Assembly (NCBI GenBank): GCA_032768795.1 | Contig: CP136499.1 | Coordinates: 310,001-374,000 of the forward strand | Origin: Tremella fuciformis | Taxonomy: Eukaryota > Basidiomycota > Tremellomycetes > Tremellales > Tremellaceae | Direction: 5' to 3' | DNA: 64,000 bases | Part shown: piece by piece, positions 20,820 to 41,402 of the stretch | How positions within the stretch are numbered: the first letter of the stretch is position 1 | Layout of the letters: every line of letters begins with the position of its first letter | The notes under the pieces: model-generated | What the model saw: only the letters and a program-made list of their open reading frames with translations | Database searches by the model: none | Told to the model about the DNA's origin: nothing | Position numbers and translations under genes: made by a program

Positions 20820-22612
20820 ATGTTCTCCAACGCCACCGATCCCTCCCTCAAAATCGTCCTCCAAGGACGACCTCTACGCCTGGTCACGATGACCAAAACC
20901 CCTTCCCCCAGCCCCACGACGCCGCCATCCTCCCCCGAGTCGGCTGTCGACGCTCCCCCTCCTCGACTGTTCCCTCGATGGGCGGTCCGTCCTCGAACTC
21001 CGGAGCCCACACCGGTCGAGGAGATCGACGAGCTCGTCGATGAGCTCGACTGGTCGGATGCGGCCAGTGCTGCGCCAAGCGGTGAGTGATTGTTGAGTCA
21101 CCCTACTGCTTGTATTGATGCCCAGGGCGTACAGCGATTCTGCGCTCGCTAGCAGACATACACGCCGAGATCCGTCGGCACCAGGGGACCGTCAGAGCCG
21201 CTAGGGAGAGTAGCTGTGCTACCTCCTCTACGTCCAGCGGCTACTCAGACGCCTCGCCCCCGTCTTCCCAGGCTTCCGACGCGGCTTTCGCTGGCGAGAG
21301 TCGCTATCGAGAAGCCCACTCCTTGCCGTTCGAGCCGGCCTCGCCTCGGCCTCTTCGCCCCTACATTGGTGGTGGGACCGGATCCCCCATCATACCGCCC
21401 TATCCCCTCGTCCCCCTCGGCTCGCCTATCCTTCTCCTTCCCCCGCCTTCTATGCCTCCGCCATCCCGCTCTCCAACTCCGCCAATCAACCCACGCCGCC
21501 GGCGTCGAGTCGAGTCGCCCGGTTCCCCAGGCAACACTCCCCTGCCAACGATACCGCCTCCCCTCTCCCCAACCCCAAAGCGTCGTCGCGTGTTGCCTGT
21601 TGGCGGCATGTACTCCTCTCGCCTGCGTTCAGCCTCAACCCGGTATCTTGGGGTGTCTGAGGTAGCCGATGCTCTCCCGGCCGCCGTGGACAACGCAGGT
21701 GTAGGAGAAGACGTCGTGGAGGGGAGCATCTCGACGGGAGACGGATCCGAAGCGGGCAGCGAAGGATCCGTTGGGGAATCCGAAGCGGGCAGTGGAGGAT
21801 CCGATGGGGAGGGAAGCGAGGCGTCGTCGAGGCGACTCGAGGCTGGCCCTCGAGTCCGGTGTAGGAATGCGCTGGACCGCGCCTTTTTCGGTACGTCCGC
21901 CATCTGTTGAGGTCCCCGCTCATTCCCAGGGCCATTCTACCCGACGTTCGGCCGGGGATCGAATAGGACCCTCCCATGGGCCCTGGTGCGTTGTTGTCTT
22001 CTACTCTCCAGCCTCTCACGCTGATCTTGCAGGCTCAGGCAAAAGGGCGACCTCTCCGCACGCTCAACGGCCGCCAGCGATGCCAGCGGTGTCGTTCGGA
22101 CAACTTGCCGTGTAGGGTCCTAGATGGAGGCGGGCCGAAGTTGAAGTGCTACACCTGTGGCACAGCCTCAGGTTGCTCGTTCAACTCCAGCCCGACTCCT
22201 CGACGACCCGCCAGCTCGTCCTCGACACCCAGAGCTCGCCGGGCTGTGAGCTTCGCGGATGTCGACCCGCCTTCGCCGACTCCCGCCCCCACGCCTGTTG
22301 TCGGCCCGGCCGCCTTCACCGACCGACTTCGCCGGTCGGTTCGTCAACCCGTGCCGGCTCCCGTGCCGCCTCCGGTGTCGACTCCTGCCCGCCCATCCGC
22401 GCCAGCTCCCTTGTCGTGGACTCCCTCGACGAGGCTCGACATCGGTGTCCTTCAGCACCATGTCACGCTGGCCCAGTCAGTCCCTCCCGGCGGACAGGGC
22501 GTACCACGTCGAGGAGGCGAGGCGGCACGCGAGGCTCCTGGGGCTGGACCTTAGGGCGATGGTCGGGCCCATGTTCGACGACGTGGCGGAGGCGAGTGGT
22601 TCGGGGTCGTGA
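20820..22612 (+). CDS. Antisense accessory gene in Ty3-1 with Zn2Cys6-like module, spliced
   Basis: This gene is on the strand opposite gag-pol and converges with pol (stops 119 bp apart). Exons by canonical sites: 20820-21081, 21126-21890, 21930-21985 and 22033 onward; introns of 44, 39 and 47 bp keep one open frame. The protein is largely disordered (Pro, Ser, Glu rich; basic PRRRRRVESP and PKRRRV stretches that may be nuclear signals). It then has six cysteines, CQRCRSDNLPC and KCYTCGTASGC, spaced C-x2-C-x6-C-x11-C-x2-C-x5-C, close to the fungal Zn2Cys6 pattern. A helical tail (YHVEEARRHARLLGLDLRAM) ends at TGA 22610-22612. It lies in another frame, so a further intron or a one-base shift near 22440-22480 is required and unresolved. 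Function unknown; DNA or RNA binding is an inference. Confidence 0.65.
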
Positions 22613-22731
22613 ATGTAGATAGTGTACATAGTTCTTTCTTAGCTCATGTTCATATGCCGTGTTGTTCATGTTGTACAGGGGATGCAGGGATAGGACTCAG
22701 CTTGGGTGACGAATCTCGATCCAGATCATCG

Positions 22732-23676
22732 TCACCGCCAGTAGTCCATGCGTTTTATTCCTCTTGGTTTCCCTGGGTTCCTTTTGTGGAAGCTCTCGAC
22801 GCTTTCGAGAGCACCAGTAATGTTCTCCACTGGTTCCCAGGTCGTCTCCTCATCTGTTCCTTCGTACCCCACCCACTCGACGAGGTACTCCACCTTTCTG
22901 CCCCTTTTCCTCGAGTCGACGACGTTCTTCACCTCATAGCTAGGGCCCTCGTCGTCGACCTCCACTGGTGGCGGAGGGTCGTAGGTCTGTCCAGGGATCC
23001 TCGGCGGGTGGTATGGCTTAAGACGGAGGACGTTGAAGACCGGGCTCACCCTCATCGTCGCCGGCAGCTCCAGCTTGTACGTTGATGGACCCGTCTTAGC
23101 GAGGATTTTGTATGGTCCCCCCCATTTGATGTCGAGCTTCTTCGAGGGTCGACGAGTCTTGATGTTCTCCATCGACAGCATGACCATATCATCCACCTTC
23201 AACACTGGCGCATCCCTTCTCTTTGCATCGTAATACTTGGCGTACCGCTCATTGGCTTGCTGTATGGCTTGTTGGCAAGATCGGTGCACCTCGTCGAGGG
23301 ACCCAAGCTTTTCCTTGACCGACGGTATCTCCGCTCGCTCGGCGCTCTCTCTCAAGTCATCAGTCCATCGCGGCGAGTACCCAAAGTTCGCCTCGAACGG
23401 GCTCATCTTGATCGCCGAGTGCTGGGTATTGTTATAGGCGAAGGCTGCTCTCTGCAGCAGACTCGACCAATTGTCTTGTCTGTGATCGCAGAATACCCGT
23501 AGGTACTGCTCGAGGACCTGATTGACTCGCTCCGTCTGCCCGTCGGTTTGGGGATGGAAGGCTGTCGACAGGCTGATCTTGATCCCCAGGGCCCCACACA
23601 GTGCTCCCCATAGTCGACTAGTGAACTTGCTCCCTCGATCAGATACGATGGATCTTGGCAACCCATGCTGCGCCAC
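22732..23676 (-). CDS. Ty3-1 Pol, integrase C-terminal half and chromodomain (frameshifted part)
   Basis: Contains the integrase second aspartate (IVSDRGSKF) and glutamate (TDGQTERVN), the GPY/F-like region (KWGGPYKI) and a C-terminal chromodomain (YEVKNVVDSR...YLVEWVGYEGTDEETTWEP). Chromodomains direct integration to particular chromatin in other Ty3 elements. The frame differs from the upstream pol frame. The overlap at 23639-23676 reflects a small deletion with frameshift rather than a programmed site. Confidence 0.9.
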   Translation of the reverse strand: MAQHGLPRSIVSDRGSKFTSRLWGALCGALGIKISLSTAFHPQTDGQTERVNQVLEQYLRVFCDHRQDNWSSLLQRAAFAYNNTQHSAIKMSPFEANFGYSPRWTDDLRESAERAEIPSVKEKLGSLDEVHRSCQQAIQQANERYAKYYDAKRRDAPVLKVDDMVMLSMENIKTRRPSKKLDIKWGGPYKILAKTGPSTYKLELPATMRVSPVFNVLRLKPYHPPRIPGQTYDPPPPVEVDDEGPSYEVKNVVDSRKRGRKVEYLVEWVGYEGTDEETTWEPVENITGALESVESFHKRNPGKPRGIKRMDYWR

Positions 23677-26600
23677 GACATTGTCGATGATGAGGTCGAC
23701 GAGTCCCGCCGTTGTGAGGCGAGTGGCGGTCTACCACGACGAGGATGGAGTTGAAGCCCTGGCTGCCGGGGAGCTCCTCGATGAAGTCCATGGAAATTGC
23801 TTGCCACGGGCCTTCCGGGACTTCGAGACTCTGGAGGAGACCATGAGGGCGCTGCCTGCTTGTCTTTGTCCTCTGGCAGATGGCACAACCCTGTACGTAG
23901 GCCTCAACATCGCGCCGCAGCCCCAGCCAACAGACGTCCCTCCTGAGCAACTCCAACATCTTGGTGATTCCCGGATGTCCCGCTAGGATCCCCTCATGTC
24001 GATCCCTTATGGCTCGGAGCCGCCCATCGCCCTTGCCAGTGAGGTATAGCCGCCCATTGAGTCGCAGGGCCCCGCCAGGCTCTACCTTGGCTCGTGTGGG
24101 CTCGTCGAGGCCCATCCTTTGAACCAACCCAAACAGCTTGGGGAATCCCGCCGCATCAATCACCACTCCGTTCTCCTCCTTCTTGATCCTCTCCAACTCT
24201 TCTCCAGCGTGCTCGAACTCCTCATCCTCCTCCCAGGTGCTCCGAGTACCCGTCTGCGGATCCTCTCTTGCCTCTGGATCTGGACTCGACGAGCCTCGTC
24301 GAGGCTCCTCGATGAGTGCCCGAAGCATGTACCCCAGCGACGTCTCGACCTTGCTTTCTTGGTCAAACCCAGGTAAGGCCTGCACTCGTTGCTCCTCCAG
24401 GTCCAATCCATCAGGCTTGTAGTCGGGCCTCCTCGACAGAGCGTCTGGGTAAGCCGCTTTGAGCCCGGGACAATACACGATTCGGAAGGAGAATCCTGCC
24501 AGGGCGTCGACCCATCGCGCAACCCGCCCACTCAGTTTCCTCGGCTCCATCCAATAGCTGAGGTTGTGGTGATCCGTGAGGACCGTGCAGCTTACTTGCA
24601 GAAGGAGATGTCGCTTCCGCTTGAACGCCATCACTATCGCCAGGAACTCCTTCTCTGTAGTCGTCCAGTTCAACTCTGCCCCCGAAAACGACCCAGACTC
24701 TATGGCCACCGGGTGCTCGAGGCTCGTCGAGGGGTTAATCTGTGATATCACAAATCCCCACCCGTAGAGCGAAGCGTTGGTCTGCACGATGGTCTCGAAT
24801 GCAGGGTCGAAATGGGCTAATACAGGGGGCTCGCTCATTCGCCTCTTGATCTCTTCGAAGGCTCTTGCCTGCGCGTCTCCCCAACCAAACGGGACTCCCT
24901 TCTTTGTCAGCAACACTAGGGGGAGCGCTACCTTGGCAAAGTTGGGTACGAAGCGGCGGTAATAGTTTGCCAGACCCAAGAACCGGCGTACTTCGAGGAG
25001 GTTGCTTGGTGCTGGGAAGTCGACGACGCCTTTCACGTACTCCGGATTCGCTTCCACGCCTTCTCGGGAGATGACAAAGCCCAGAAAGTCGACCTTCCTC
25101 TTCTCGAACTCGGATTTCGACGCTTTCACATACAGTCCCGCCTTCCGCAACGCCTCGAGTACCGCCTTTGTGAGGGAACGAAGCTCGTCGAGGCTCTTGG
25201 CGTGGACCAAAATGTCGTCGATGTAGATCACCACTCCCCGCCCAACAAACTCTCTGAGCACCTCGTTGAGGAAGTGCTGGAAGACTGCTGGCGCGTTCTT
25301 CAAGCCATCTCGCACTACCAGGGACTCGAACATCCCCAGAGGCGTCCTAAAGGCGGTATAGGCTTCGTGTCCTGGCGCCATGCGAAGAAGCTGGTAGGCT
25401 CCCGGTAGGTCGAACTTGGTGTACCACTCTGACTCCGCCAGATCAGCCGTGACTTGGGAAATCAACGGCAAGGGGTACGCGTCCGACACTGTTGCCTCGT
25501 TGAGCTTCCGGTAATCGACCACCATTCGCCATTCGCCGGCAACCTTCTTAGGGACGAAAAAGCTCGGCGACCCATACGCCGCGTTCGATGGCCTGATCTT
25601 GCCCGCTGCTTGCTCTTTGGCGAGGAGCTCCCTGAGTGCTCTCATTTGATCCGGCGACAGTTGGTAAAGCGGTGCGACCCGTAGTTCTGCGCCCTCCTTC
25701 AGTCTGATCCGCAGGTCGTATTCTCTACTCGGCGGAAGCGTGTCGGCGGGTCGACGAGGGTGGAACACATCGAGGAACTCATGGTAGTACTCCGGAACGA
25801 TCCTTCGCACCGCCTGGGACTCCTCCTCTGACAGAGTGTACTCGTCAAACCCAAGATGCCCGTCCAAACGCCCCACCACTTCCTCGAGCTCGTCGGTGAC
25901 AGTCCCTCGCAGCCGCTCTGCGGCGAGCCTGTTCTGCTCCCACCGATTGATCCGCAAGGGGATATGGTTCGGGGAGCTCCTACGGGACTGCCCCGCGTGT
26001 TTTCCTCTCTCTCTTCTTGCTCTGGTAGCCAAAATGGCCAGATCACTTGAAGCAGCCTCGACGACCGTCGACGAGGCCACCTTTTCTTCTCCACGGGTGA
26101 CTTCCATAGCTCCCATGTCCATGACTACTCTCTTCTCTTGCATCCAGTCGTACCCTAGCACGACGTCTGCACCTGCGAGCCGCGTAACCGCTAGCCGTTC
26201 TTCACTTGTTTCCCCAAGCGTCTCCACCGGGGCCACCACTTCGTGGGTGATTTCGCCCGCGGATGACGGTTCGCCGTCGAACAGGAGGACATTCCTGGGT
26301 CGCTCCAACTTCTGTTGGGTCAAGCCCTGGCCTTCGGCGTAGTCCTGATCAATGAAGGTCCCGCCTGCGCCTGTATCTAACAGTATGCAAGCGGCCGTCC
26401 CGTCCACTTTTCCTGCTACGACAGCTTGATGCCTTCCCAGCCTGCAAGCCTCACCGCTCATGCATTCCTCGGCATCACTAGCACTCTGTACAGACTCCTT
26501 CTCGGACTCCAGGTCCTCTGCTTCTTCTTCATGTTGATCTTCCTCGACGAGGGAAGCGGACCCCGTCGGTGGGTGAGTGGGCGTCGGATTAGAGGATTTG

Positions 26601-26788
26601 AGAGGTGAAGTCGGTTGTTCAGGAGGCGTGAGGGCGGAGAGTGTGTATGGAGCGGGGCCTCGAGTTTCTCCTTGTAGCTCGGGACCCCTCAGGCTTCCCC
26701 CTGCGGCTCCTGCTTCACGCGTTGGCCGGGGTTGAACGAGCCTGGGCAGTCGCGCGCAAGATGCCCAGCGTTTCCGCACTTGAAGCAA
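23639..26788 (-). CDS. Ty3-1 Pol: protease, reverse transcriptase, RNase H, integrase N-terminal part
   Basis: Protease has LLDTGAGGTFID. RT has the YIDDILVHAKS catalytic block and FVPKKVAGEWRMVVDYRKLN. RNase H retains TEKEFLAI and LTDHHNL, but its first catalytic block reads IVQTNAS where TDAS is expected, an Asp to Asn change near 24777. Integrase begins with the HHCC domain (CAICQRTKTSRQRP) and the first catalytic Asp (SMDFIEELP). The frame then loses the usual LTKMAHFIP-type segment and ends out of frame. The pol frame is -1 relative to gag and overlaps it by 100 nt. I see no canonical slippery heptamer; a GGGGG run lies just before the gag stop. Confidence 0.92.
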   Translation of the reverse strand: MLQVRKRWASCARLPRLVQPRPTREAGAAGGSLRGPELQGETRGPAPYTLSALTPPEQPTSPLKSSNPTPTHPPTGSASLVEEDQHEEEAEDLESEKESVQSASDAEECMSGEACRLGRHQAVVAGKVDGTAACILLDTGAGGTFIDQDYAEGQGLTQQKLERPRNVLLFDGEPSSAGEITHEVVAPVETLGETSEERLAVTRLAGADVVLGYDWMQEKRVVMDMGAMEVTRGEEKVASSTVVEAASSDLAILATRARRERGKHAGQSRRSSPNHIPLRINRWEQNRLAAERLRGTVTDELEEVVGRLDGHLGFDEYTLSEEESQAVRRIVPEYYHEFLDVFHPRRPADTLPPSREYDLRIRLKEGAELRVAPLYQLSPDQMRALRELLAKEQAAGKIRPSNAAYGSPSFFVPKKVAGEWRMVVDYRKLNEATVSDAYPLPLISQVTADLAESEWYTKFDLPGAYQLLRMAPGHEAYTAFRTPLGMFESLVVRDGLKNAPAVFQHFLNEVLREFVGRGVVIYIDDILVHAKSLDELRSLTKAVLEALRKAGLYVKASKSEFEKRKVDFLGFVISREGVEANPEYVKGVVDFPAPSNLLEVRRFLGLANYYRRFVPNFAKVALPLVLLTKKGVPFGWGDAQARAFEEIKRRMSEPPVLAHFDPAFETIVQTNASLYGWGFVISQINPSTSLEHPVAIESGSFSGAELNWTTTEKEFLAIVMAFKRKRHLLLQVSCTVLTDHHNLSYWMEPRKLSGRVARWVDALAGFSFRIVYCPGLKAAYPDALSRRPDYKPDGLDLEEQRVQALPGFDQESKVETSLGYMLRALIEEPRRGSSSPDPEAREDPQTGTRSTWEEDEEFEHAGEELERIKKEENGVVIDAAGFPKLFGLVQRMGLDEPTRAKVEPGGALRLNGRLYLTGKGDGRLRAIRDRHEGILAGHPGITKMLELLRRDVCWLGLRRDVEAYVQGCAICQRTKTSRQRPHGLLQSLEVPEGPWQAISMDFIEELPGSQGFNSILVVVDRHSPHNGGTRRPHHRQCRGAAWVAKIHRI

Positions 26789-27831
26789 AGGCCCTGGCTG
26801 CCTCGCCTCTCGTGCTCGTCCGGAGTGAGCCTAGGGCGAGGAGGGTAGACTCGTCGAGGGGCTGCAGCGGAGTTGAGACTCGACGAGGTTGTCGGGCCAG
26901 GTGAGGGTCTGGGGTTCGTCGCCGCCGCTCCAACCTCTGACGTAACCGCTGTAGATCCGCCGTTGTTGCCGCCCAGGACAGTCTTCTTCTTCTCTCGCCT
27001 GTTCTCCGCCTTGTTCTTCTCTGCCTCCCTTGCTCGCAGACTGTTGTCGAGGCGGACCACAAACGCCTGCAGCTCGGCAAAGGTCTCGAACTCTTTGGGG
27101 TGCCTGGCCACCTCGTCCTGAAGCACGTCGGAGAGCCCTTCCTTGGCACGAGCCGTTGCTTGCTCGTCGAGCTCCCATGAGAGGACTGACGTGTACTCCC
27201 GAATCTTGGCGAAGTATTCGGCTGCCGATCCCGTCTGCCGCAGCGAGAAGTACTTGCGTCGAGCAGTCCCCTTCGCGTCGGGATCCCCAAAGTTCTCGCG
27301 CAGGTAGCGACGAAGCCCAGCGTAAGTCCGAATTTTCTCGTCGAGGTAGTCGCCAGCCTCGACATGCTCTCCGTTCTCGTTCAAATCGCTGTCTCGCCCT
27401 GTCGCCAAGGGCTGAATCGCGTCGAGCACGAATCCCCTGAGGAACGAGATCACATACATGACCTTGTGCGTGTCGCCAGAGAACTTCGACGGCTGCAGCT
27501 TGAAGACCGTCTCGCACTGCATGATGAACCGCTCCAAAGCGGCTGGGTCCTTGCCGTTAAACGTGTCAGGCGGGTTCGCCTTCGGCTCGGACGGGTTCCC
27601 AACGCCTGGCGAGCCCTGTCGTTGCTGCGCCTGCTGCTCGACGAGGGCCGCCTGAAGCTGCACGATTTGCGCGAGCAACTGCTGCACAGACGGCTGATCA
27701 CCCAATGGTTGGGCCATGTTGGTCGCGGCGGCTCTCAGTCGAGTGTCCACCGGTAGTCGTAGGTTTGTGGGTAGAGCAATGTGCTGATGCTCAGGATCTG
27801 TCGACGTGGTTCGTCGAGTCGATGGTGCCAT
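26689..27831 (-). CDS. Ty3-1 Gag, 380 aa
   Basis: Starts with ATG at 27831, 38 nt inside the 5' LTR boundary. It contains a Ty3-type capsid region (ERFIMQCETVF, FVLDAIQPLA) and ends with a CCHC zinc knuckle, CFKCGNAGHLARDCPG, and a basic tail. The capsid packages the RNA in cytoplasmic particles. It overlaps the pol frame by 100 nt. Confidence 0.93.
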   Translation of the reverse strand: MAPSTRRTTSTDPEHQHIALPTNLRLPVDTRLRAAATNMAQPLGDQPSVQQLLAQIVQLQAALVEQQAQQRQGSPGVGNPSEPKANPPDTFNGKDPAALERFIMQCETVFKLQPSKFSGDTHKVMYVISFLRGFVLDAIQPLATGRDSDLNENGEHVEAGDYLDEKIRTYAGLRRYLRENFGDPDAKGTARRKYFSLRQTGSAAEYFAKIREYTSVLSWELDEQATARAKEGLSDVLQDEVARHPKEFETFAELQAFVVRLDNSLRAREAEKNKAENRREKKKTVLGGNNGGSTAVTSEVGAAATNPRPSPGPTTSSSLNSAAAPRRVYPPRPRLTPDEHERRGSQGLCFKCGNAGHLARDCPGSFNPGQRVKQEPQGEA

Positions 27832-27853
27832 GAACTAGTCGTGTGAGAGGTAG

Positions 27854-27867
27854 TAGCACCGTGGTAT
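27854..27867 (-). promoter_or_regulatory. Ty3-1 self-priming primer-binding site
   Basis: On the minus strand, ATACCACGGTGCTA begins 2 nt after the 5' LTR. Its exact reverse complement, TAGCACCGTGGTAT, lies in the LTR (28020-28033), about 33 nt downstream of the TATATATA box at 28059-28067, where the transcript should begin. No TGG-starting tRNA site is present. This matches the Tf1 mechanism, in which the mRNA 5' end folds back and primes. Confidence 0.8.
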
Positions 27868-27869
27868 AC

Positions 27870-28273
27870 TGTCACGGGGCCAGGCCGGTCGTCGACTGAT
27901 AGGCCCTCTCACACGTGCTGTCTGTTGATCTGTCTCTGTCCTCCACAAGAAGGTGTGTCCTACAGCCTCTCGTGCGTCGACAACACGGCTGCGCCGTTAC
28001 TTTCTATCCATGGGACTCAATACCACGGTGCTAAGGACGGTCTACGGGTGAGGACTTGTATATATATCACCCGTGCCCTCCTCTGCACCGCCTTGGGCTT
28101 TCTCCTTGAAACACCATCGACGAGGCTCGAGCTCTAAAGTCGTCGAGGCTACTCGAGCGTCGTCGAGGCTACTCGAGGATCGACGATAGGCTCACGTGTT
28201 TGACAGGCGTGCTGGGCTGGAACGAGGCTCGTAGGCGTGCTTTGGTGATCATGGAGGCGTGGCCGACGTGACA
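27870..28273 (-). repeat. Ty3-1 5' LTR (LTR4) with promoter
   Basis: 404 bp. Right flank TCGTC is the target duplication. The minus strand carries TATATATA and the predicted start at about 28033. It also carries the short motif CTCGAGTAGCCTCGACGA twice, in overlapping versions, a motif shared with the copia LTR. Confidence 0.92.
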
Positions 28274-28921: not shown

Positions 28922-29619
28922 TGTCATGACCCAGTCCTGACACCTCAGCTCCCAGTGGCAACCTTCCACAACATTCCATGACCTTCCATGGATTTGCCAC
29001 TCAACCTTCCACCACCTTCCATGATCTTCCATGGCTTGCCACCCATGGAATCTTCCACCACATTCCGTACGACGCAATGTACAATCCAGGTACAAAGGTG
29101 TCAGGGTCAAATGACATCATGGGAGCGCTGAGTAAGCAAGGCTGTGCTAGAAGAGGAATCTGATTGGTTGATAAATCCCTCATGATGTGACATCATTGAG
29201 GCATTTATCTGATTGGACAGTTCATACTATTCCATAGTCTTCCATAGCCTTCTATGAGCTGGGTGGCAAACCCAGCTCAGGGGATAAATACCCCCACCTT
29301 GAGGCCCTTCTGACCTCAAGGATCCAATATCTCATTGTTACTCTCATCTCTTTGCCACCCATCATCAGTCTACCTGATCCTCAACTCAGGTCAGCAACCC
29401 ATCATCACCGGATACTTTGACTGGCTTGCTCTTCTATAGGCAAGTCCAGGATCCTCAGTCATCGTCCGGAGCTCTCCCACTATTCCCTTCATCATCATCA
29501 CTGCTTCCAGTTAGCCCTAGTGCTGCTGAAGAGTATCCGCGGCAATCACTTGCCACCCGTCAATCATCCACCCTTGCTAGCTTAACCCTTCTTGGGCAGC
29601 AGCTAGCCAGGCCGTAACA
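28922..29619 (+). repeat. Ty3-2 5' LTR with promoter
   Basis: 698 bp, TGTCATG to GTAACA. The U3 part is packed with TTCCA/TTCCACC motifs. A TATA-like GATAAATA at about 29283-29290 lies some 34 nt upstream of AAGGATCCAATAT (29318-29330), the predicted mRNA 5' end and self-primer. Confidence 0.93.
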
Positions 29620-29621
29620 GT

Positions 29622-29634
29622 ATATTGGATCCTT
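29622..29634 (+). promoter_or_regulatory. Ty3-2 self-priming primer-binding site
   Basis: ATATTGGATCCTT begins 2 nt after the LTR and is the exact reverse complement of AAGGATCCAATAT inside the LTR at 29318-29330. Spacer (GT), length and position match Ty3-1 although the sequences are unrelated, which supports self-priming in both. Confidence 0.8.
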
Positions 29635-29670
29635 CCATTAGTGGGAACTCCATTACTGGACTCCATCATC

Positions 29671-30834
29671 ATGCCGGTAACTCGATCAACTCAACACGAC
29701 ATCCAGCACCAGGCTGAGAACATCATCTCAGCTGATGCTGTCAACCCAACCAACACCCCTCTACCGGATGACGACAACACCAGTCTCACTCCTCCAAGAT
29801 CTGAGGCTGGGGACACCCAAGGTCATCATGAGTCACCAGCTCAATCTACCACTAGTGCCATCGAGGTACCATCCGGTAATGTGGTGATCTCAAATGATCT
29901 TCTTCAACAACTACTGCAACGTTTGGCTCAACCAATGATCACTCCACCACCTCGATCAACAACCACCCCAACACACACCTCAACCAAAGGCCCAAACATC
30001 CGAGCACCCGACACTTTCCATGGCACCGATACCACCAAGCTCAAGCCATTCCTCTCTCAATGCCGTCTGGCCTTCAAGGCAGACCCTCACAGGTATGCAA
30101 CAGAGGAGTCTAGAATCATGTATGCAGGTTCCTATCTGGACTCTGTGGCCAAGAAGTGGTTTGATCCCTTCTTGTTCCTGGAGCCTGGGATGAAGGACTA
30201 CCCTGCTTACTTGGACTCTTTTGCATCCTTTGAGGCGGAGCTCATCAAACTATTTGGTGACCCGGATGAGGAAGCTACTGCAGAATATCATCTCAGTAAG
30301 CTGAGGATGCGCGACAATCATCAAGTCTCTCGATACATCACCGATTTCAGGCGTTATCAGACCCTCCTTGATTGGGATGACAAGGCCCTTGCCTATCAAT
30401 TCCGCAAGGGGTTGCCCCCAAGGATCTTGGACGAGCTGGCACGCAGGGATGACAAGCCAACCGGTCTGGCCGACCTACAGCAGGTTGCTCTCAAGATTGA
30501 CCTCCGATACTGGGAGCGTCAGAGAGAGAAAGCAGACTTCTCCCATCCAGCTACAGACAAGCCTGTCAAGCCAGTAGTCAATCAAGTCACCACCAGGACA
30601 ACCTTCATCCGATCTTCAACACCCAAAACCGACAACAATTCCACCCTTACTCGAGAAGGACACATCAAGCCTGATGAATACCGCCGACGCAAGGAGAACA
30701 ACCTCTGCCTGTACTGCGGAGAAGCAGGCCATCCACGCGACAAGTGCCCCAAGTCCAAACCAAGGGAAGACAAACCCAAGGTTGAGCTGCGGGCGAGCAA
30801 CAAAAGCTCTTCTCCCCAGCAGGGAAAAGAGTAG
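29671..30834 (+). CDS. Ty3-2 Gag, 387 aa
   Basis: ATG at 29671 is the first in frame after the leader. The capsid-like core includes LKPFLSQCRLAFKAD and YLDSVAKKWFDPF. A CCHC knuckle (CLYCGEAGHPRDKCP) lies near residue 350. The stop TAG at 30832-30834 lies 3 nt after a -1 slippery heptamer. Confidence 0.92.
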   Translation: MPVTRSTQHDIQHQAENIISADAVNPTNTPLPDDDNTSLTPPRSEAGDTQGHHESPAQSTTSAIEVPSGNVVISNDLLQQLLQRLAQPMITPPPRSTTTPTHTSTKGPNIRAPDTFHGTDTTKLKPFLSQCRLAFKADPHRYATEESRIMYAGSYLDSVAKKWFDPFLFLEPGMKDYPAYLDSFASFEAELIKLFGDPDEEATAEYHLSKLRMRDNHQVSRYITDFRRYQTLLDWDDKALAYQFRKGLPPRILDELARRDDKPTGLADLQQVALKIDLRYWERQREKADFSHPATDKPVKPVVNQVTTRTTFIRSSTPKTDNNSTLTREGHIKPDEYRRRKENNLCLYCGEAGHPRDKCPKSKPREDKPKVELRASNKSSSPQQGKE

Positions 30835-31843: not shown

Positions 31844-34800
31844 CTATGTATGATCTACGGAAGCTGCTCTCAACACGTCCTTATACACAATGTTCACTGT
31901 TTCTCCCCGCTTCCCGCGCTCAGACTCCTCCAATAGCACCTTCAGCCCATTCTTGAAGCGTGCGCGTGACAGACCCACATATAATTGCCCATGTGTGAAG
32001 ACCGGCTTTGGCAGATAGAGACCAATTGTTGCAAGTGACTGACCCTGGGCTTTATTGATTGTAAGAGCCAGCCCTATGCGAATGGGGAACTGAGTACGGC
32101 GAAGCGTGAACGGAAGATTTGCCGATCGAGGGGAATCAAGCTTGATGCGGGGAATAAGACACTCGTTTGTATGGTAGTCACCGCCAAGAATCCGACCACG
32201 TATGACGTTTGAGTGCAACTCAGTCACATAGATCCGCGTGCCATTGCAAAGGCCAGCCGAAGGGTCGAGATTCCGTAATAGAAGTATTGTTGTTCCAACC
32301 TTGACGCGGGTCTTATGCAAAGGGAATCCACCAAAAGTGATTGAATTGAGATATTCGATAGGCCACAGTTGTTGATTGCTCAGTCGTCCCCGGCCTGGCT
32401 GAGAGCCATCGTTTTCCACAATATAGTCGGCACTGAGATATGTACGTGACTCCCCAGGCAACTCGTCCAGTAAGCTGATATTCAGGCCGTCCACTTCCGC
32501 ATTTGTTGGTGCCAAGATAGCTCGATCCTTGAAGTACTCCATTGCCGTCTCATTGTCTCGATACCTGCCCAAGTTTGGGTACACATGCCGGCGGAGATCG
32601 TCCACATTGTTGACCAATAGTTCTGGCGGGATATGCACCGTGTCCTTCTCCCTGCCATCACATTTCCCGTCCCCAATTTCTAACAACCATTGAGCAAATG
32701 TCTCAGCTTCGGCAAATTCCCTCGGGCTCATTGATGCACTGCGTAATCGCATGTTGACTGTCAATCGAAGTCGGATGACGTCACTCCACAGTGAGGAGCT
32801 TGTGAGACAGGCATTTCGAATCTGTGCTTGCGACCCTTTCGGTACCACCGGAAGGCATTGTCGGAAATCTCCAGCAAACACCATAACCACTCCTCCAAAA
32901 GGTGCATCAAAGTTGCGCACATCCCTAAGCATTCGGTCCACAGCTTCTGCCGCAAATCGATGTTGCATTGGTGCTTCATCCCAGACAATCAGATTTGTTT
33001 TTCTGAACAGTTCCGCCAGTGTTGACTGCTTAGACACACTGCATTTTGAATCACCATGAAGGTCAATCGGTATTTTGAAACGTGAGTGCGCTACCATGTC
33101 AGTCAAATGCTTCAACAATCTCAGTTTCATTCTCACCTGTACGGCCACCTTTGAGCAGGATTGCACAAATACCGGATGACCCAACCATGAGGACAATCTG
33201 TCCCTCTCCCCTTAGCACTGCGGCTACCGTGTTCTCCACAAACGTCTTGCCGCAACCTCCTGGTCCGTCCAAGAAGAACACAGTCGGTGTCTGCTGTCGT
33301 GCTGCCAAAAGGATGCTCTGAATGATAGCCTTCTGCTCGCCATTTGCACTCTCAAGATTTGTGCTTCCCACTCTCGCCAAATCGGTCCTATCGTATGACG
33401 TTTCCTCAAGGATCAAACGTCCTTCGGCTGATGTATCGAAACTGATCGTAGGTGTAGGCAAGCCAAAGTCGTCCAACTTCTTTCCCCTCTCGTCAAGGAG
33501 GTCCCGTAACATACACAGTGCCAGGGATTGCCTCTGTTCAGCACTTGGTCGATCACAATGATATCTGTCTCGTAGAACCGGAATGAGATCATCGCTCAAT
33601 GCTTGCCAGTGATTTGCCCATAGTCGTGCCGGATCCGAAGGTTCACTCTCCATCAAGATAATCACAAACAACCGCCGCATTCCATTGCCTGATGCCATGA
33701 GTGATGCCTGCTCCAAGCATGTCTCAAGATCGGAGTCGTCGTCAAGTAGTCCAAGGGCAATGCATGCTGCCCTACATGTCGGATGCACAACCCCATCCAC
33801 AGTTCGCAAGTGCTCAAATGAGGTCGGGCATGCCACCTGGTAGAGAAGTAGTCGCAAATAATAACGCTCGCCAGCTTGAGGCCCGGCAAAGTATACTCGC
33901 CCAATGGTCCCACCTCGTCGTCGCAGCCCCCAGCGCCGATTCGTTTTGTTCCAAGTCAAATACTTCGGAGCTTCAGGGTAGACCACATCCCGCAGTATGT
34001 CGGGCCAGCGCTGACATGCGTTGAAGAAAGCTGTGAGTGTTGTGCCACGTGCCAAATTGCCCTGTGCCATCTGTGCCGCAATATCGTCCGTGGTATCGAA
34101 CATCACCATTTGCTGATCAGGTAGATGTAACTGCAATCGTACCACAGGGGGGGAATGTCCATGCATTGGCATCGAAAGCAATCGCCATGCCGCTGCTGAT
34201 CAGGCCCAACCAATAATAGCATCTCAGGACAACTTACCTTCAGAGGAGGCCACATAACGTGCATCTTCATAAGCCTCCACTTCATCAATGTCTGTTCCAA
34301 CAGGACAGACCGCCACATTCGCTCTATCATGACCCTTGTAGACATACTTGAAGAGGTACTTCACGGCTGTGATTGAAGTACAAACCTCAACATTGATATG
34401 GCACTCATAGCGTGCAGACAGGTATGGGTTGTAGGGGACGACGTCCCGATTGCTGAATGTCGTTCCTCCTTTCTCAAAGACTCGCCCATTATCGCTCCGT
34501 CGATACACCGGATATCCATCATTTTCAATTGAGGTCTCGGGCTGCCACGCTCGTGGATACTTCTTTGAACACTTTCCATCCTTGAGGCACTTTGGTCCAC
34601 ATGGCCCATGTACCATGCAGTTTGTGACAATCCGCCAAAGGGCCGGCTGTGTGTCTGGATCAGGCAACTCTGCGCATACAATTCTATCTATGTCGGCCGG
34701 TGTTTGTGGCTTGTCTGCTGGGTCCAAGCACAAAAGCATGTGACAGTGTGGCAGGCCTCGCTTTTGAAATTCGATAACCCAAATTTTGGAGACGACCTGT

Positions 34801-36534
34801 CACTCAATGTCCGCAAATCCTATATTCTTATTGCTCACTCACTGTACCAAAGACTCCTTTTTTGAAAATTTCATTCTGTAATGCGCCTAACTTGAGTCGG
34901 AAGACTCGTGCAACAATATCTGGTCGATCTTGAGCGGTCTGGCCCGTCTCCAAAGCGGATTGGATATCGTCCCACAGAGGATTGCAAGTCATCGTTATGA
35001 AGAGGTCGGGCTTTGTAGAATCGGCAACAATAGCCATTGCGTCTTGATATAAGGCATGCATCTGCCTGGGTGATCCGGCAAAGGTGGAAGGTAGGATCAC
35101 CCGTTGTCCAATGTCTGTAGGGTGCATCCCGATGTCCACTGCATCCATCACGCCCGCATAAGAATCTGCTCGAAGTGTGTCTTGATTGTTCCGTATGAAT
35201 CGCAACCGATTTGTCTCTGTTTGAGCCCAAAAGTCCACCAAGTACTCCTGAAACAATCGTCCGCAGAACAATATTGTATTGAAACAGGTCGCCCGCTTGA
35301 ACATGTAATATGACGCAAACTGGGCTTGGGAGACCCGTGTTGATCCAGCTCGGCCAGTACGCACCACTTGATCATCCCCATTATCATCACCGCCATCACC
35401 ACCATCAATACCATCGCCGCCGTCAAACTGCTCATGATTTTCGTTTGCTCCAGTGTTGTGTGCATCATTCGTGTTGTTTCCAGGAAGTGGTTGGCCTGCA
35501 AGAGGGATTCCAGGGTGCCAGCCAGGTTCACCGTAAGGGAACATGAGAGTGAAGTGGAGGGGCATGAAACTTGAATGCAGCTCAGACATGCGCTGCGGGA
35601 TACCACTGCCTCGTAGGTGAACAATAATCTCTCGACCTGCCGACTGTTCATCTTCATTCCCCACATAAAGACAGGCCACCTCTTGCGCTGTCGGCCGATT
35701 GTATGTTCGAGGGTCACGGTTCTTTGGATCCAGCAGTGACAATGTGCGATCGATTATGGTGCCATTCACATCGTTGTGCCGCTCCTTGAAAGTAGTGAAA
35801 GCGGCATAGTATGGGTTCTCTCGTCGAATCATTTGCTCCAATTTGACCAACATTGATAATTCAATCCGCGCAAAATGATGCTGCTGCCGAATGGATGCTC
35901 GCTCCATGGGATCCTCTGCCGTGAAATACACCTGAGCAAACTTGGGTTGATCACCCATAGGTGGCAGAATCGACCCAAGCAGGTGATAGCAACGTCCTTT
36001 AATCTTATATGTGTACACCCCCAACTGGCCGGCCACGGATTCGTCCTGCGTGCACCCAGTTGATGTGAACGCAAGGGCATTGTTATAGTTCCGCATGAAT
36101 AAGCGTCGAGTCTTGCCCACTTGTCTTGTCAGCACAGCCAAAATGTAATGAATCCTAACGTACCCCCGCTTTGATCTGTTAAAAGTTCTCGTAGCTCCAA
36201 TGGGGGATCTAATGGTTGAGGAAGAACCACCGCCCCATTTGTGCAGCATTGAGAGAATCTGGGGGAGGCCACCGTAGAATGCTCTCCCCCTGGCGCTCGT
36301 CCAACCGAGCGCTCATCTTTCCAGTGCAATGCGCCACATTTGACGCATTGAATGTCACAACTCCCAAGGCTATGGGGTGTCCATGACGTACTGTATGGCT
36401 GTAGTGCCTTCTTCGGGACTCTTCAGTTGTCAGCAGTGAAATTTAGACATGCTATTGTCAACCCACACATGCCCTTCTCTGTCTCTTCTCATTTGTTGCG
36501 CTGTTTGCCGCCTATTTTGTTCGGGTTGTTCCAT
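31844..36534 (-). CDS. Helitron Rep-helicase (RepHel), spliced
   Basis: Rep part: cysteine cluster QCVKCGALHW, RNYNNALAFTS, MFPYGEPGW, DLFITMTCNPLW, HUH motif in GLPHCHMLL and paired tyrosines in KYLFKYVYKG. Pif1-type helicase part: Walker A DGPGGCGKT, WDEAPM, GDFRQCLPVV, LRLTVNMR and the final LTINKAQGQS and YVGLSRAR motifs. Rep nicks and joins single strands; the helicase unwinds. Four introns of 44-46 bp with consensus sites restore one frame: 36120-36163, 34797-34842, 34193-34237 and 33091-33136. The stop is at 31844. The first exon is uncertain; ATG 36534 (MEQPEQNRRQ) is my best start. All catalytic motifs are present, so it may be functional. Confidence 0.9.
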
Positions 36535-36840
36535 TGCAATGGGGAGTCCGATAGGACTGTGAATAACGGGGAAATCCAACGTAAACTGCAATTGATAGGC
36601 CAAGATTTGTGTAAGGGGGACTTTTTCAGTCCGGCACTCCCTTACATAGGTGGCAGGGAGGTCCCTGTGCCAAAACATGTATCTTAAAAAAACAGTACAA
36701 CGAAAAATGGGACAAAAACGAAAAAAAATTGGTTTTCCCAGCCAAAATGGGATTTTTGGGGGATTTTGGCCGACGAATCGTCCGGTTCAAAATAGGTGTT
36801 TTTGGCAGTTTTGCTCTCGGGGCTCAAAAGACGTAGCCCC

Positions 36841-37810
36841 GGTCGACCCGATCTCGGGACTGGTCTCGGGACTTGTGTCGGGTCGACGGTTGGCCGGGAA
36901 AACGGCTCGGAAGTTGACGTGCTGGGGGCTCTGGTCCGAAAACGTTTTCGGTCGAGGACGTAGCCCCGGTTGACCCGAGCCCGGGACTGGTCTCGAGACT
37001 CGTGTCGGGTCGACGGTCGGACGGGAAAACGGCTCGGAAGTTCCGAGACCCGACGATTTTCGAGCGACCGAGCCCTCCCGAGCCTCCCCGAGCCGAGACG
37101 GTGACGTGCTGGGGGCTCTGGTCCGAAAACGTTTTCGGTCGAGGACGTAGCCCCGGTCGACCCGAACCCGGGACTGGTCTCGAGACTCGTGTCGGGTCGA
37201 CGGTCGGACGGGAAAACGGCTCGGAAGTTCCGAGACCCGACGATTTTCAAGCGACCGAGCCCTCCCGAGCCTCCCCGAGCCGAGACGGTGACGTGCTGGG
37301 GGCTCTGGTCCGAAAACGTTTTCGGTCGAGGACGTAGCCCCGGTCGACCCGAACCCGGGACTGGTCTCGAGACTCGTGTCGGGTCGACGGTCGGACGGGA
37401 AAACGGCTCGGAAGTTCCGAGACCCGACGATTTTCAAGCGACCGAGCCCTCCCGAGCCTCTCCGAGCCGAGACGGTGACGTGCTGGGGGCTCTGGTCCGA
37501 AAACGTTTTCGGTCGAGGACGTAGCCCCGGTCGACCCGAGCCCGGGACTGGTCTCGAGACTCGTGTCGGGTCGACGGTCGGACGGGAAAACGGCTCGGAA
37601 GTTCCGAGACCCGACGATTTTCAAGCGACCGAGCCCTCCCGAGCCTCTCCGAGCCGAGACGGTGACGTGCTGGGGGCTCTGGTCCGAAAACGTTTTCGGT
37701 CGAGGACGTAGCCCCGGTCGACCCGAGCCCGGGACTGGTCTCGAGACTCGTGTCGGGTCGACGGTCGGACGGGAAAACGGCTCGGAAGTTCCGAGACCCA
37801 ACGATTTTCG
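36841..37810. repeat. 187 bp tandem repeat array inside the Helitron
   Basis: Units start at 37101, 37288, 37475 and 37662 with exactly 187 bp spacing. A slightly divergent unit precedes at about 36913, with a partial one from 36841. Single units differ at a few bases. Each unit contains the palindrome CGAAAACGTTTTCG and GTGACGTGCTGGGGGCTCTG. Two more partial copies of the latter lie at about 37820 and 37885. It sits upstream of the RepHel start, between it and the 5' terminus. Long open frames across it are a by-product of the periodicity. Confidence 0.92.
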
Positions 37811-38061
37811 AGCCGTGTATGTGCTGGGGGCTCTGCGCCGTTGGCTCGGGGAGCGGCCGAGACTTGAGATTTGGGTGCGGGTGGTGACGTGCTGGGGGCT
37901 CTGCTCGGAAGTGACCGGTCGGCCCAGAGACGTCTTCGGTCGGATCGGGACGTGAGGGTAATCTCATTAGGAAAGCGGTGTAAGTGAGCCGTTTGGGTGG
38001 GCTAATGGGATTAGTGAAGCCGGCTCAGATGCCACGTGGCTGCCACATGGTTTGTCTATCG

Positions 38062-38081
38062 TGTTCTTTTATTATAGTAGA
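38062..38081 (-). other. Helitron 5' terminus
   Basis: On the minus strand the element starts TCTACTATAATAAAAGAACA, immediately after host A. The TC start and AT-rich run are typical of fungal Helitron 5' ends. Confidence 0.88.
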
Positions 38082-40851
38082 TGATAACCTTGCCAAAGGA
38101 TTTATTGCTCCATCCAAATCACCAGCTGCATCACCAATCCTCTTTGTGAAGAAGAAGGATGGCAGCCTCCGACTCTGCGTCGACTACCGCCGTCTCAACA
38201 ACATCACCGTCAAGAACCGGTACCCATTACCACTCATCAGCGATCTCTTGGATCGACTCCGACATGCCCGGTACTTCACCAAAATCGATCTCAGAGGTGC
38301 CTACAACCTGCTCCGCATAGCAGAAGGAGACGAATGGAAGACAGCCTTCAGGACCCGCTATGGCTTATTTGAATACAAGGTAATGCCATTTGGGCTAACT
38401 AATGCTCCAGCCTCCTTCCAACACCTCATGAACCATAACTTCCGGGACATGCTCGACGTCTTTGCCATTATCTACCTGGATGACATTCTCATCTACTCCA
38501 AGACCTTGGAGGAACATGAGGAGCAAGTCAAAAAGGTACTCCAGAGGCTGAGAGAGATCAATCTCTTTGCCAAAGGAGAGAAGTGCGAGTTCCACAAAGA
38601 ACAAGTGGAATTCCTTGGGTTTATCATCAACCATGATGGAATAGTCATGGACCCCAAAAAGGTCCAGACTGTCCTGGATTGGCCCACACCCAAGAAAGTC
38701 AAGGATGTTCAGGCATTCTTGGGCTTTGCAAACTTCTACCGCCGCTTCATTAGGGACTTTGCCAAACAATCGGCTCCCCTCACAAGGCTCACTCGCAAAG
38801 ACATCACATTCACCTGGTCAGAGGAATGTCAGCTTGCCTTTGACTCCCTCAAAGCAGCTTTCACTTCTGCTGATCTCCTACGGCACTTTGATCCCGCCAA
38901 ACCAATCATCATTGAGACCGACGCATCCGACTTTGCCATCGCCGCCATCTTGTCTCAACCATCGGAAGACACTCTCCACCCAGTGGCCTTCTACTCTCGC
39001 AAGATGGATCCAGCCGAGCTCAACTACGAGATTCATGACAAGGAAATGCTTGCCATTGTTGCAGCATTCAAGGAGTGGAGACACTACCTTGAAGGGGCAC
39101 AGCATACCATCACTGTCATGACCGACCACCGATCACTCGAATACTTCACCACTTCCAAGAAGCTGAATCAGCGCCAAGCCCGCTGGTCACTGTTCTTGAC
39201 CGCCTTTGATTTCAAAATCACCTATCGACCCGGAAAACAAGGTGCCAAACCAGACGCCTTGACCCGTCGACCCGACTATCGATCTTCACCAGACCTACCC
39301 AACACCGACCACCACAATTATCAACCTCTTCTCAAACCTGGTCAGCTCCTCATGGGCACCATTGGCACCACCACCATCACCTCTGATCTGAGCGACCAGA
39401 TCATTGCTGCCTACCCCCATGACCCTTACACTGCCAAACTCTACAAAGAGTTAGCAGAAAGTCCAGCTCCAAATGAGTCTACAATCACCCTTGACTCAAA
39501 AGGACTGCTTCACCATCATCAGGCCATCATCATACCAGATGCTGCGGATCTGCGTCTACAGTTGGTCAAGGAATGCCATGACAGCCCTGCTGCTGGTCAT
39601 CCTGGTCAACAAAAGACATATGACTTAGTATCCAGGAACTACTGGTGGCCTAAGATGAAGGACTTCATCCATCATTACGTCAACAGCTGTGACACTTGCC
39701 AAAGAACCAAGGTCCCACGTCACAAGCCCTATGGTCAACTCAAATCACTACCAGTCCCTCCATTCCCATTCTCCTCCATCTCCATGGACTTCATCGAACA
39801 ACTACCACCCTCCAACAACTACACGGCCATCCTAGTTGTTGTCGACCGACTTACAAAGCTAGCCACCTTCATTCCAACCACCAATGAAGTGACAGCAGAG
39901 GGATTGGCATCACTCTACCTTCACAATGTCTGGCGACATCATGGATTACCAGAATCAATCATCTCAGACCGCGGGTCTGAATTCAACTCTCGCTTTTGGA
40001 AATCCCTTACGCGATTACTCGACATCAACCAGATCTTCAGTACTGCCTACCATCCTCAGACAGATGGTCAGACAGAAAGAGTCAACCAAACATTGGAACA
40101 ATACCTCCGAACCTACACCAACTACCAACAATCCAATTGGTCCGACCTCTTGCCTTTGGCAGAGTTTGCCTACAACAACTCTGTCCATTCATCAACTGGC
40201 ATCACCCCATTCTTTGCCAACAAAGGCTACCATCCTCGAGCCAACCTGGCCCCGGCATCAATCACCACCAACTCGCCCCCAGCTGAGACTTACGTGGCCA
40301 AACTCAATGACCTTCATCAACTTTTGAGGGAGGAAATTGAGTATGCCAACACTCAGTCAGCCAAATTCTACGATCAAAAGCACCTCCCAGCACCAGACTT
40401 TCCTATCGGCAGTAAAGTCTGGCTATCACGGCGCAATATCACAACCACCCGTCCATCCAAGAAGCTTGATCACCGCTTCCTTGGACCCTTTGAGGTCATA
40501 GAGAAGATCTCTTCTCATGCCTACCGGCTCAATCTTCCAGCCAACATGAAGATACACAATGTCTTCCATGTCAATCTCCTGGAACCTTATCAACCCAACT
40601 CCATCCCCAACCGTGTTCAACAGCCTCCAGATCCTGTTGAGGTTGAAGGTGACGAGGAGTACGAGGTAGCTGCCATTCTGGACAGTAAACTGGACAGAAG
40701 GTACAGACCCCCACTCCGATACCTTGTGTCATGGGCTGGTTATAACAGTCCTACTGACAACACTTGGGAACCTCCAAGCAACCTGGAGCACTGTCAAGAT
40801 CTTGTGGCCAAGTTCCACAAAGACAATCCATCCAAACCTGGTCCACAATAG
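38082..40851 (+). CDS. Ty3-2 Pol, reverse transcriptase to chromodomain (right of Helitron)
   Basis: RT has [32 protein letters not shown] and [10 protein letters not shown]. RNase H has [22 protein letters not shown] and MTDHRSLEY, with all catalytic acids. Integrase has the HHCC domain ([15 protein letters not shown]) and D-D-E in [18 protein letters not shown] and TDGQTERVN, then GPFEVI. A chromodomain ([10 protein letters not shown]...[22 protein letters not shown]) closes the protein. Apart from the Helitron the frame has no lesion. The stop is at 40849-40851. Confidence 0.94.
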
Positions 40852-40910
40852 TGCAAGCTCTGCCTCAACCATTCTGCAAGCTTGACACAGGATCATACAT
40901 CTCACATCAT

Positions 40911-41402
40911 TCAGAGGACCTCATACATTTCAGTCAGGTCCTCCTCCACCCTCTCCATCTTCTCCTCCAACTTCTCAAACTCCTCCCAGTCCTCAACCAC
41001 AATGTCTGCCTTGACCTTGTCCACCTCAGTGAGCAAGGTCTCAAGGGAGCTTGTCAATTGGACTGCCCTTTCCTTCACCCTCAGGAGCTCTGCTTCCAGC
41101 TCCTTCTTGCTCATCTGCCTTGCTTTGGCCTTGCCAGTGTAAGGCTTGAGGGAGCAAAGCTTGCTGTCATGTGCACAAGAGTAGCACTTGTCACCAGGCC
41201 CAGTCCAGATGCAGGCCATGTGTCTCTTGACACAGGTGTCACAGCCAGGCTTGTGGATCTGCCCAAACTTGAGGATCCTCTGTGCTCTGGCAAGCCTTTG
41301 CCTCTTCTGTTTCAAGTCAGCTTTGCCACCACTCTCAGAGGAATCACTCACAGAGTATGACCAAGGCTTCTGCCAAAAAGTAGGAGTGTTGGTTGTGGTC
41401 AT
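40911..41402 (-). CDS. Antisense accessory gene in Ty3-2: Zn2Cys6-like coiled-coil protein, 163 aa
   Basis: An intact single-exon frame on the strand opposite gag-pol, convergent with pol (stops 59 bp apart). ATG at 41402; a GATATAAGG TATA-like element lies about 70 bp upstream. Residues about 54-90 hold six cysteines, CDTCVKRHMAC and KCYSCAHDSKLC, with spacing C-x2-C-x6-C-x8-C-x2-C-x6-C, which fits the Zn2Cys6 consensus. Basic residues flank the cluster (KQKRQRLARAQR). Residues about 98-163 form a charged coiled coil (KKELEAELLRVKERA). It lacks a Zn2Cys6 regulatory domain. Position and cysteine pattern match the antisense gene of Ty3-1. Role unknown; a nucleic-acid-binding regulator of the element is an inference. 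Confidence 0.8.
   Translation of the reverse strand: MTTTNTPTFWQKPWSYSVSDSSESGGKADLKQKRQRLARAQRILKFGQIHKPGCDTCVKRHMACIWTGPGDKCYSCAHDSKLCSLKPYTGKAKARQMSKKELEAELLRVKERAVQLTSSLETLLTEVDKVKADIVVEDWEEFEKLEEKMERVEEDLTEMYEVL

Follow-up and report, generated by a model that had tools for sequence, protein, structure and literature searches.

Locus and features of the two elements

The window analysed here is a stretch of 64,000 bp of the Tremella fuciformis genome (C10:310001-374000; C-numbers denote contigs of this genome, and L-numbers, L005 to L053, loci within it). It contains two retroelements of the Ty3 type, Ty3-1 and Ty3-2, each of which carries, between pol and the 3' long terminal repeat (LTR) and on the strand opposite gag-pol, a frame that encodes a six-cysteine, zinc-cluster-like module. 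The two frames represent a conserved antisense gene: other Ty3 families in the genome, and for Ty3-1 also other copies, carry it in the same position and orientation, and, judged from its substitution pattern, the Ty3-1 antisense frame is a protein gene. The coordinates, strands and cysteine spacings proposed for both frames in a preliminary description of the window proved correct; a six-frame motif scan found just these two sites in the 64 kb and none in 60 simulated windows (order-2 Markov model), the motif-class ranges of the scan having been fixed after both motifs were seen. The genome searched for relatives comprises 28.1 Mb in 11 contigs. The features of the two elements are:

19731-28273, minus strand: Ty3-1, chromodomain Ty3 element (self-BLAST, LTR ends and flanks, domain scan)
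22732-26830, minus strand: pol of Ty3-1, split in the window copy into overlapping frames 23639-26830 and 22732-23730
20754-20759, plus strand: TATA-like element of the Ty3-1 antisense gene, 66 bp before the ATG
20820-21081, plus strand: Ty3-1 antisense gene, exon 1 (splice-site reading, copies)
21126-21890, plus strand: Ty3-1 antisense gene, exon 2, with basic stretches resembling nuclear localization signals (NLS; by eye)
21930-21985, plus strand: Ty3-1 antisense gene, exon 3
22033 to about 22612, plus strand: Ty3-1 antisense gene, exon 4, which encodes the six-cysteine module (22081-22176) as well as a C-terminal segment that is conserved
28922-42555, plus strand: Ty3-2, chromodomain Ty3 element with a nested Helitron (self-BLAST, LTR flanks, domain scan)
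37984-40851, plus strand: pol of Ty3-2, with reverse transcriptase (RT), RNase H, integrase and chromodomain (list of open reading frames (ORFs), domain scan)
40911-41402, minus strand: Ty3-2 antisense gene, single exon, 163 amino acids, ending 59 bp from the pol stop
41465-41470, minus strand: TATA-like element of the Ty3-2 antisense gene, 68 bp before the ATG

Ty3-1 is bounded by LTRs of 404 bp each (19731-20134 and 27870-28273) with the target duplication TCGTC on both sides, and encodes RT, RNase H, integrase and chromodomain as well as a gag with a zinc knuckle. The LTRs of Ty3-2 (28922-29619 and 41858-42555; 698 bp) are identical, and the target duplication is TTCAC. Places of the Ty3-1 type elsewhere in the genome have an open antisense gene, and an open pol is likewise found elsewhere (1368-1370 amino acids in L038, L039, L042 and L043). 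The preliminary description had called the two elements unrelated; they indeed have no alignable DNA in common, but each has a chromodomain Ty3 pol, and over RT-RNase H the two are 46% identical, so that by their protein sequences they are distant relatives and 'unrelated' is too strong.

Structure and copies of the antisense genes

Four exons, separated by three short introns (39-47 bases), make up the Ty3-1 antisense gene; its frame is convergent with pol, and its stop lies about 120 bp from the pol stop. The module in exon 4 has the spacing C-x2-C-x6-C-x11-C-x2-C-x5-C (22081-22176, plus strand). A genome search with this gene gave 63 matches at an expect value (E) of 1 or less, most of them 90-100% or about 53% identical and some in between. 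The copies examined comprise 30 rows from 28 places (two places twice; the window copy included), which were located via the antisense gene itself; copies lacking the gene escape this count. A complete frame of 545-556 amino acids over four exons is present in 19 of the 28 places and is incomplete in nine, including the window copy. The ends of the introns predicted in the preliminary description are kept throughout: GT/AG is intact for intron 1 in all 26 rows having both of its ends, and for introns 2 and 3 in all 30 rows. The TATA-like elements it had placed upstream of both genes were likewise confirmed, and of the 12 rows that align at the site of the Ty3-1 gene (13 tried; window copy among the 12), 10 read either TATAAA or ATATAAG, the exceptions being L036 (ATATTAA) and L034 (one substitution).

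The window copy of the Ty3-1 gene is frame-shifted near its C-terminus by a small tandem duplication, which is absent in five copies alongside, and constraint on its tail (22447-22612) is seen in frame +2. An additional intron close to the end of exon 4 was considered and rejected in favour of this duplication, because the duplication is missing from those five copies and the 19 full frames read through. At L028 (C10:729000-738900) there is a decayed antisense gene of the Ty3-1 type; those 9.9 kb gave no Ty3 pol match.

The Ty3-2 protein consists of a basic stretch, the six cysteines (41154-41243, minus strand; C-x2-C-x6-C-x8-C-x2-C-x6-C) and a heptad-repeat segment, and no other domains were found in it. 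In the heptad segment all eight a/d positions are hydrophobic, which was matched by 10 of 1000 shuffles. The Ty3-2 antisense frame is single-copy in the genome, and evidence of constraint for it therefore rests on relatives.

Coding constraint

The ratio of nonsynonymous to synonymous substitution rates (dN/dS; w) was computed for the antisense gene exon by exon against the window copy. For the Ty3-1 gene it was 0.214 in L033, 0.219 in L034, 0.230 in L035, 0.262 in L036, 0.271 in L037 and 0.227 in L039, and in the closer copies 0.354 (L040) and 0.431 (L038); Fisher's p ranged from 4e-15 to 7e-33 in the five pairs tested (L033, L034, L035, L036 and L039). The dN/dS check suggested in the preliminary description thus returned the pattern of a protein gene and not a neutral one. 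Six near-identical copies (L005, L007, L014, L019, L020 and L022; 4-14 changes, w 0.14-1.0 or undefined) were left out because they hold too few changes to inform. A second Ty3 type, represented by L024-L027, gave w of 0.17-0.42 for the antisense gene in five pairs, and two short-type pairs gave 0.22 and 0.26 with saturated synonymous divergence. For pol, rough dN/dS values were 0.10-0.24 (L033, L034, L035, L037, L039 and L040) and 0.34 in L038 on ten changes; L036 was excluded, as the pol there is that of a neighbouring element. The antisense frame does not overlap pol, and its constraint is therefore not borrowed from pol.

In a six-frame control on exons 1, 2 and 4 of L033, L034, L035, L036 and L039 (15 blocks), the annotated frame had the lowest w of the six in 14 blocks, and w exceeded 1 in 51 of 75 values for the other frames; the control was mixed in the closer copies, where L038 gave a w of 1.13 for exon 1 and L040 one of 0.80 for exon 4. 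In L034, L038, L039 and L040 every exon indel is a multiple of three in length, and introns diverge more than exons in most of the diverged copies, with L039 as the exception. Chance ORFs were rejected on the basis of dN/dS, the six-frame control and the motif simulation.

Two features of the alignments weigh on the other side. Some exon indels of L033, L035 and L036 break the reading frame, their lengths not being divisible by three. Low w is found as well for the sense-strand mirror frame (0.207 for exon 4 of L033, versus 0.266 for the annotated frame), and this mirror frame is free of stops in exon 1 of four of the five diverged copies, with stops in exons 2 and 4; its w is low throughout because the free codon positions are common to both frames. 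The antisense genes of L034, L035, L036 and L040 contain one stop each, as in decaying copies.

Distribution among Ty3 families

In the second Ty3 type (L024-L026 and the more diverged L027) the same module is present, with two introns at corresponding places (by eye). The RT-RNase H parts of L024 and L025 are 78% identical to that of Ty3-1; the exon-4 protein is 37% identical between the types, and the C-terminal segment of exon 4 is common to both. In a survey of Ty3-2-like pol genes, for which 48 places of 402 candidates were scored, 13 places show 60% identity or more to Ty3-2, which is itself one of them. Eight of the 13 carry a zinc-cluster frame that converges on pol from a distance of no more than about 0.7 kb, and a further one, C2:1060262, retains the C-terminal exon alone. 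At L045 the C-terminal exon of the antisense gene is retained. Two more families with an antisense frame are represented by L030 and by the neighbouring element in L037.

Altogether, at least nine Ty3 families carry the gene, all of them in antisense: Ty3-1, the L024 type, Ty3-2, the L044 type, the C5:1496585 type, the L047 type, L048, L030 and the L037 type; these were gathered by following matches and are a biased sample. At every locus where an antisense frame and the closest end of pol are both in view, the two are convergent. An antisense ORF between pol and the 3' LTR (the aORF-3R arrangement) is present in both window elements and at the loci with a visible pol end, and for Ty3-1 this arrangement extends to copies and constraint, with the full frame in 19 of 28 places and the dN/dS of 0.21-0.43 in eight copies. 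Zinc-cluster matches 4-5.5 kb from pol near C5:440338, C1:5385695, C11:167427 and C10:758200 were counted neither way, and the weak match at L032 (E 0.12) gave no convincing frame.

Two further frames were noted at these loci. At L044, on the same strand as the antisense gene and about 1 kb further from pol, a cysteine-rich frame (1152-1619, plus strand) runs over 1152-1433 to a stop and is open again over 1434-1619, with a coil-like tail. Behind a 57% identical Ty3 pol at L052 lies a frame of 288 amino acids (736-1599, minus strand) with what resembles a ubiquitin-hydrolase signature.

The six-cysteine module and its copia version

The six cysteines are invariant in all ten aligned modules, and KCYxC-like motifs recur. 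In profile comparisons, the copia set matched the Ty3-2 group at 96.6% (E 6e-10) and the Ty3-1 group at 92% (E 6e-7), and the Ty3-1 group matched the Ty3-2 group at 71% (E 4e-5); these are single comparisons, which a cysteine-rich composition favours, and of the copia set (L041, L031 and L050) L041 alone is copia by domain (RVT_2). At L041 (5694-9866, minus strand) the last 176 residues of an RVT_2 (Ty1/copia) polyprotein constitute the module, in frame and in sense. The same arrangement is seen by eye at L031 (2421-3881, plus strand), where a short pol remnant has no Pfam domain; between L041 and L031, w was 0.28 over the first 83 module codons and 0.51 over the whole 147. A third candidate, L050 (C8:43169), has the module at the end of a frame of 2023 amino acids, in an element whose class was not assigned by domain. 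A coil-like tail after the module recurs, by eye, in several Ty3-2 relatives and in copia.

The consensus of the fungal Zn2Cys6 cluster is C-x2-C-x6-C-x5-12-C-x2-C-x6-8-C. The spacing in Ty3-2 fits it; the last spacing falls outside it in Ty3-1 (x5) and in two related types (x4), and in several relatives the first loop is longer than six residues. In the Ty3-1 type the first loop (RSDNLP, VADDLP) is acidic. For three module members the best or only sizeable Pfam match is DUF3716 (PF12511; E 0.008-0.047), below the cut-off of 22 bits (best module 16.5 bits); in the whole genome this domain has two matches, one of them over the cut-off. DUF3716 is a fungal cysteine-rich domain with no assigned function. 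PF04195 (TRP28) was absent from the Pfam scans of the window sequences (Ty3-1 exons 1-3 outside the scan) and of the modules, and viral contigs searched with the Ty3-2 pol gave no relative.

Other features of the window

A Helitron (Helitron_like_N and PIF1 helicase; 31844-36312, minus strand) is nested between the protease and the RT of Ty3-2, despite the identical LTRs of that element. A 187-bp repeat in five or six copies (36830-37957), mostly 98% alike with the outer copies less so, adjoins the Helitron and directly precedes the Ty3-2 RT frame.

The region 15092-20134 has the layout LTR - X - LTR - X - Ty3-1. The first LTR is flanked by AGAAC on both sides, the middle LTR by TCGTC before and AGAAC after, and Ty3-1 by TCGTC; such a layout is what an unequal crossover between two LTRs would leave if it duplicated the 1.9 kb between them in tandem.

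Two inverted Ty1/copia-like elements (7276-12322, minus strand, and 47673-52684, plus strand) are about 93% alike; the domain scan covered the former. The six-cysteine module is absent from both according to the six-frame motif scan.

Comparison with known systems

Antisense ORFs in plant LTR elements have been reviewed, with mention of Boty of Botrytis (Vicient and Casacuberta, PMC7264820). The antisense gene of Boty, a Ty3 element of Botrytis cinerea, is brtn (Zhao et al. 2011, as cited in PMC7264820, PMC8365987 and PMC4227169); like the present genes, it is located between pol and the 3' LTR of a fungal chromodomain Ty3 element. The comparison with brtn was made via these citing descriptions, and brtn could prove to be of the same kind.

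In plants, antisense TRP28 (PF04195) genes, with predicted DNA binding, were found in 97% of Retand clusters (PMC11963269). They resemble the present genes in being antisense and predicted to bind DNA, and a regulatory role has been proposed for them, but they differ in host (flowering plants, to which TRP28 is described as apparently confined), in domain and in belonging to a non-chromovirus lineage, whereas both present elements have a chromodomain (PMC11963269). Gene23 of maize Grande is similarly antisense, with its own promoter upstream and a nuclear product, but belongs to a plant element and has no clear similarity to database proteins (PMC7264820). In bdelloid rotifers, ORF3 is, like the present module, one type of accessory gene found in unrelated retroelement classes (PMC5408684); its products are enzymes, however (GDSL esterase, exonuclease), and the abstract describes neither an antisense nor a zinc-cluster gene.

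Given brtn of Boty and the antisense DNA-binding-like genes of Retand, antisense accessory genes are already known, and the preliminary description, which knew of no antisense Zn2Cys6-like gene in fungal Ty3 elements, calls for a partial correction. The literature searched, outside which most subscription papers lie, yielded no zinc-cluster gene lying antisense in Ty3 elements of fungi, and the words 'antisense', 'zinc' and 'accessory' do not occur in a survey of fungal LTR elements (PMC3248453). What looks new is the zinc-cluster type of antisense gene, how widely it occurs and the fact that copia shares it.

The Zn2Cys6 proteins (PF00172; e.g. Gal4, Ppr1, Leu3 and AlcR) have six cysteines at nearly the same spacing as the present modules, with a coil-like segment as also seen in Ty3-2; they differ from the Ty3-1 type, which has a last spacing of 4-5 and an acidic first loop, and the window sequences have neither a Pfam match nor any other domain found.

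Proposed function

Selection has preserved the antisense six-cysteine gene, probably so that the element can regulate itself or the host response. Transcription would start at a TATA promoter belonging to the gene, immediately inside the 3' LTR, and run in the direction of pol, with splicing of the transcript in the Ty3-1 type. The gene would travel intact as an independently switched unit, as in plant Retand, Grande or HTLV HBZ. Its introns would never be removed in copying, because the element is copied via the sense RNA, in which they are unspliceable. The product would be a small protein with a six-cysteine zinc-cluster module, followed in Ty3-2 by a coiled-coil-like tail (a Gal4-like layout) and accompanied in the Ty3-1 type by basic stretches, termed NLS-like from the known NLS motif, and by the conserved C-terminal segment. 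This protein would most likely enter the nucleus, bind nucleic acid or chromatin at element copies, and adjust element expression or silencing in trans. The likely promoter of its own, the splicing and the likely nuclear product together lead us to a regulator of element copies. The comparisons establish that the gene is conserved, with its exon structure and coding constraint, that its site and orientation are constant across many families and that the modules are related; that it is transcribed, that its product binds zinc and is nuclear, what the product targets and in which direction it acts are what we infer here. That the product acts as a nuclear regulator at element copies has, in our judgement, an even chance of being correct. 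We place the same weight, no higher and no lower, on the broader proposal of a zinc-cluster regulator family that is specific to retroelements, is kept in antisense, sometimes spliced and with its own promoter, in many chromodomain Ty3 lineages, and has been exchanged with Ty1/copia, where the module stands in sense at the polyprotein end.

Several results weigh against a nuclear regulator. The fit of the second motif to Zn2Cys6, as put forward in the preliminary description, stood as to spacing but not as to profile: even at E = 1, no Zn_clus (PF00172) match was obtained for the Ty3-2 protein or for the exon-4 piece of Ty3-1, and among the modules two of ten members reached at best E 0.16 and one of ten segments 0.14, below the Pfam cut-off. 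No module had a significant match to PDB profiles; the best was Mdm2 (E 0.04), with Ppr1, AlcR, Leu3 and Gal4 only at E 1.6-4.8. The search against other proteins proposed earlier returned genome matches that lie antisense behind Ty3 pol, but no protein database homologue at E of 1 or less for the Ty3-2 protein, the module alignment (a search that, by its length, could find short proteins only) or the exon-4 alignment. In Gal4-like proteins, basic residues of the first loop contact DNA; the first loop of the Ty3-1 type has no such residues. In the pol survey, no zinc-cluster frame was found at four of the 13 Ty3-2-like places (C5:2330355, C1:6242399, C2:2362992 and C3:1131052; the flank inspected was that of C1:6242399, L046), nor nearby at any of the 35 pol places of 57% identity or less (flanks inspected: L049, L052 and L053). 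Copia sequence, with no zinc-cluster frame, stands behind pol at L046 and L049, and no six-cysteine frame occurs within 1.6 kb in the 3' flanks of L052 and L053 (57% and 55-56% identical pol); some families may therefore do without the gene.

Among other explanations, an anti-silencing factor is a less likely but real possibility: the protein would block host RNA interference, heterochromatin or other silencing, and antisense expression would work with the sense promoter shut. The fast evolution of the exon-4 protein (37% identity between types, versus 78% for RT-RNase H of L024 and Ty3-1), the TATA-like element of its own and the presence of the gene in many families, with others in which it was not found, agree with such a role, but the layout of cysteines and coil is equally that of ordinary regulators. 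A structural or replication accessory (an RNA chaperone, a packaging cofactor like a second nucleocapsid, or an integration cofactor) is rather unlikely but, like the anti-silencing factor, a live rival. The module of L041 copia, in sense and in frame at the polyprotein end, is placed as a polyprotein-derived replication factor would be; the gag of Ty3-1 already has a zinc knuckle, however, the introns and the TATA-like element separate expression of the gene from that of gag-pol, and the basic NLS-like stretches (by eye) fit such an accessory poorly.

Yeast Ty1 is known to limit its copy number through an antisense RNA. It is quite improbable that here, too, the antisense RNA is the functional product, pairing with the sense RNA and limiting copy number with the frame incidental: a transcript convergent with pol would overlap pol on read-through, and effects of antisense genes through double-stranded RNA have been proposed (PMC7264820), but codon-level constraint in separate exon blocks, with introns mostly more diverged, would then be unexpected. 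RNA effects could exist in addition to those of the protein. Most improbable is that an element picked up a zinc-cluster gene of the host by chance and has carried it along as a passenger. Zn_clus domains are many in this genome (123 matches among 150 scored of 199 candidates), which would offer a source; the closest matches whose surroundings were inspected are nevertheless element modules, save for a frame of 74 amino acids at C3:10125, no module match at E of 0.01 or less coincides with a place in the Zn_clus list (by eye; the list is partial), and constraint across diverged families at a fixed site and orientation is not what a passenger would leave.

Implications

Plants and one fungus were already known to have antisense genes in the interval from pol to the 3' LTR. 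The present genome holds, within one organism, many copies at varied divergence, families that have the gene beside others that seem to lack it, and a naturally occurring sense version in copia, so that function can be put to a direct test through comparisons among elements and the deletion of a single small gene. Gene finders may call such frames host transcription factors, which is a warning for annotation. The distribution of the module suggests an accessory gene that is able to move between Ty3 and Ty1/copia lineages. If the proposal of a retroelement-specific regulator family is true, it would represent a fungal parallel to the antisense or regulatory genes that complex retroviruses possess, one module being expressed in two different ways.

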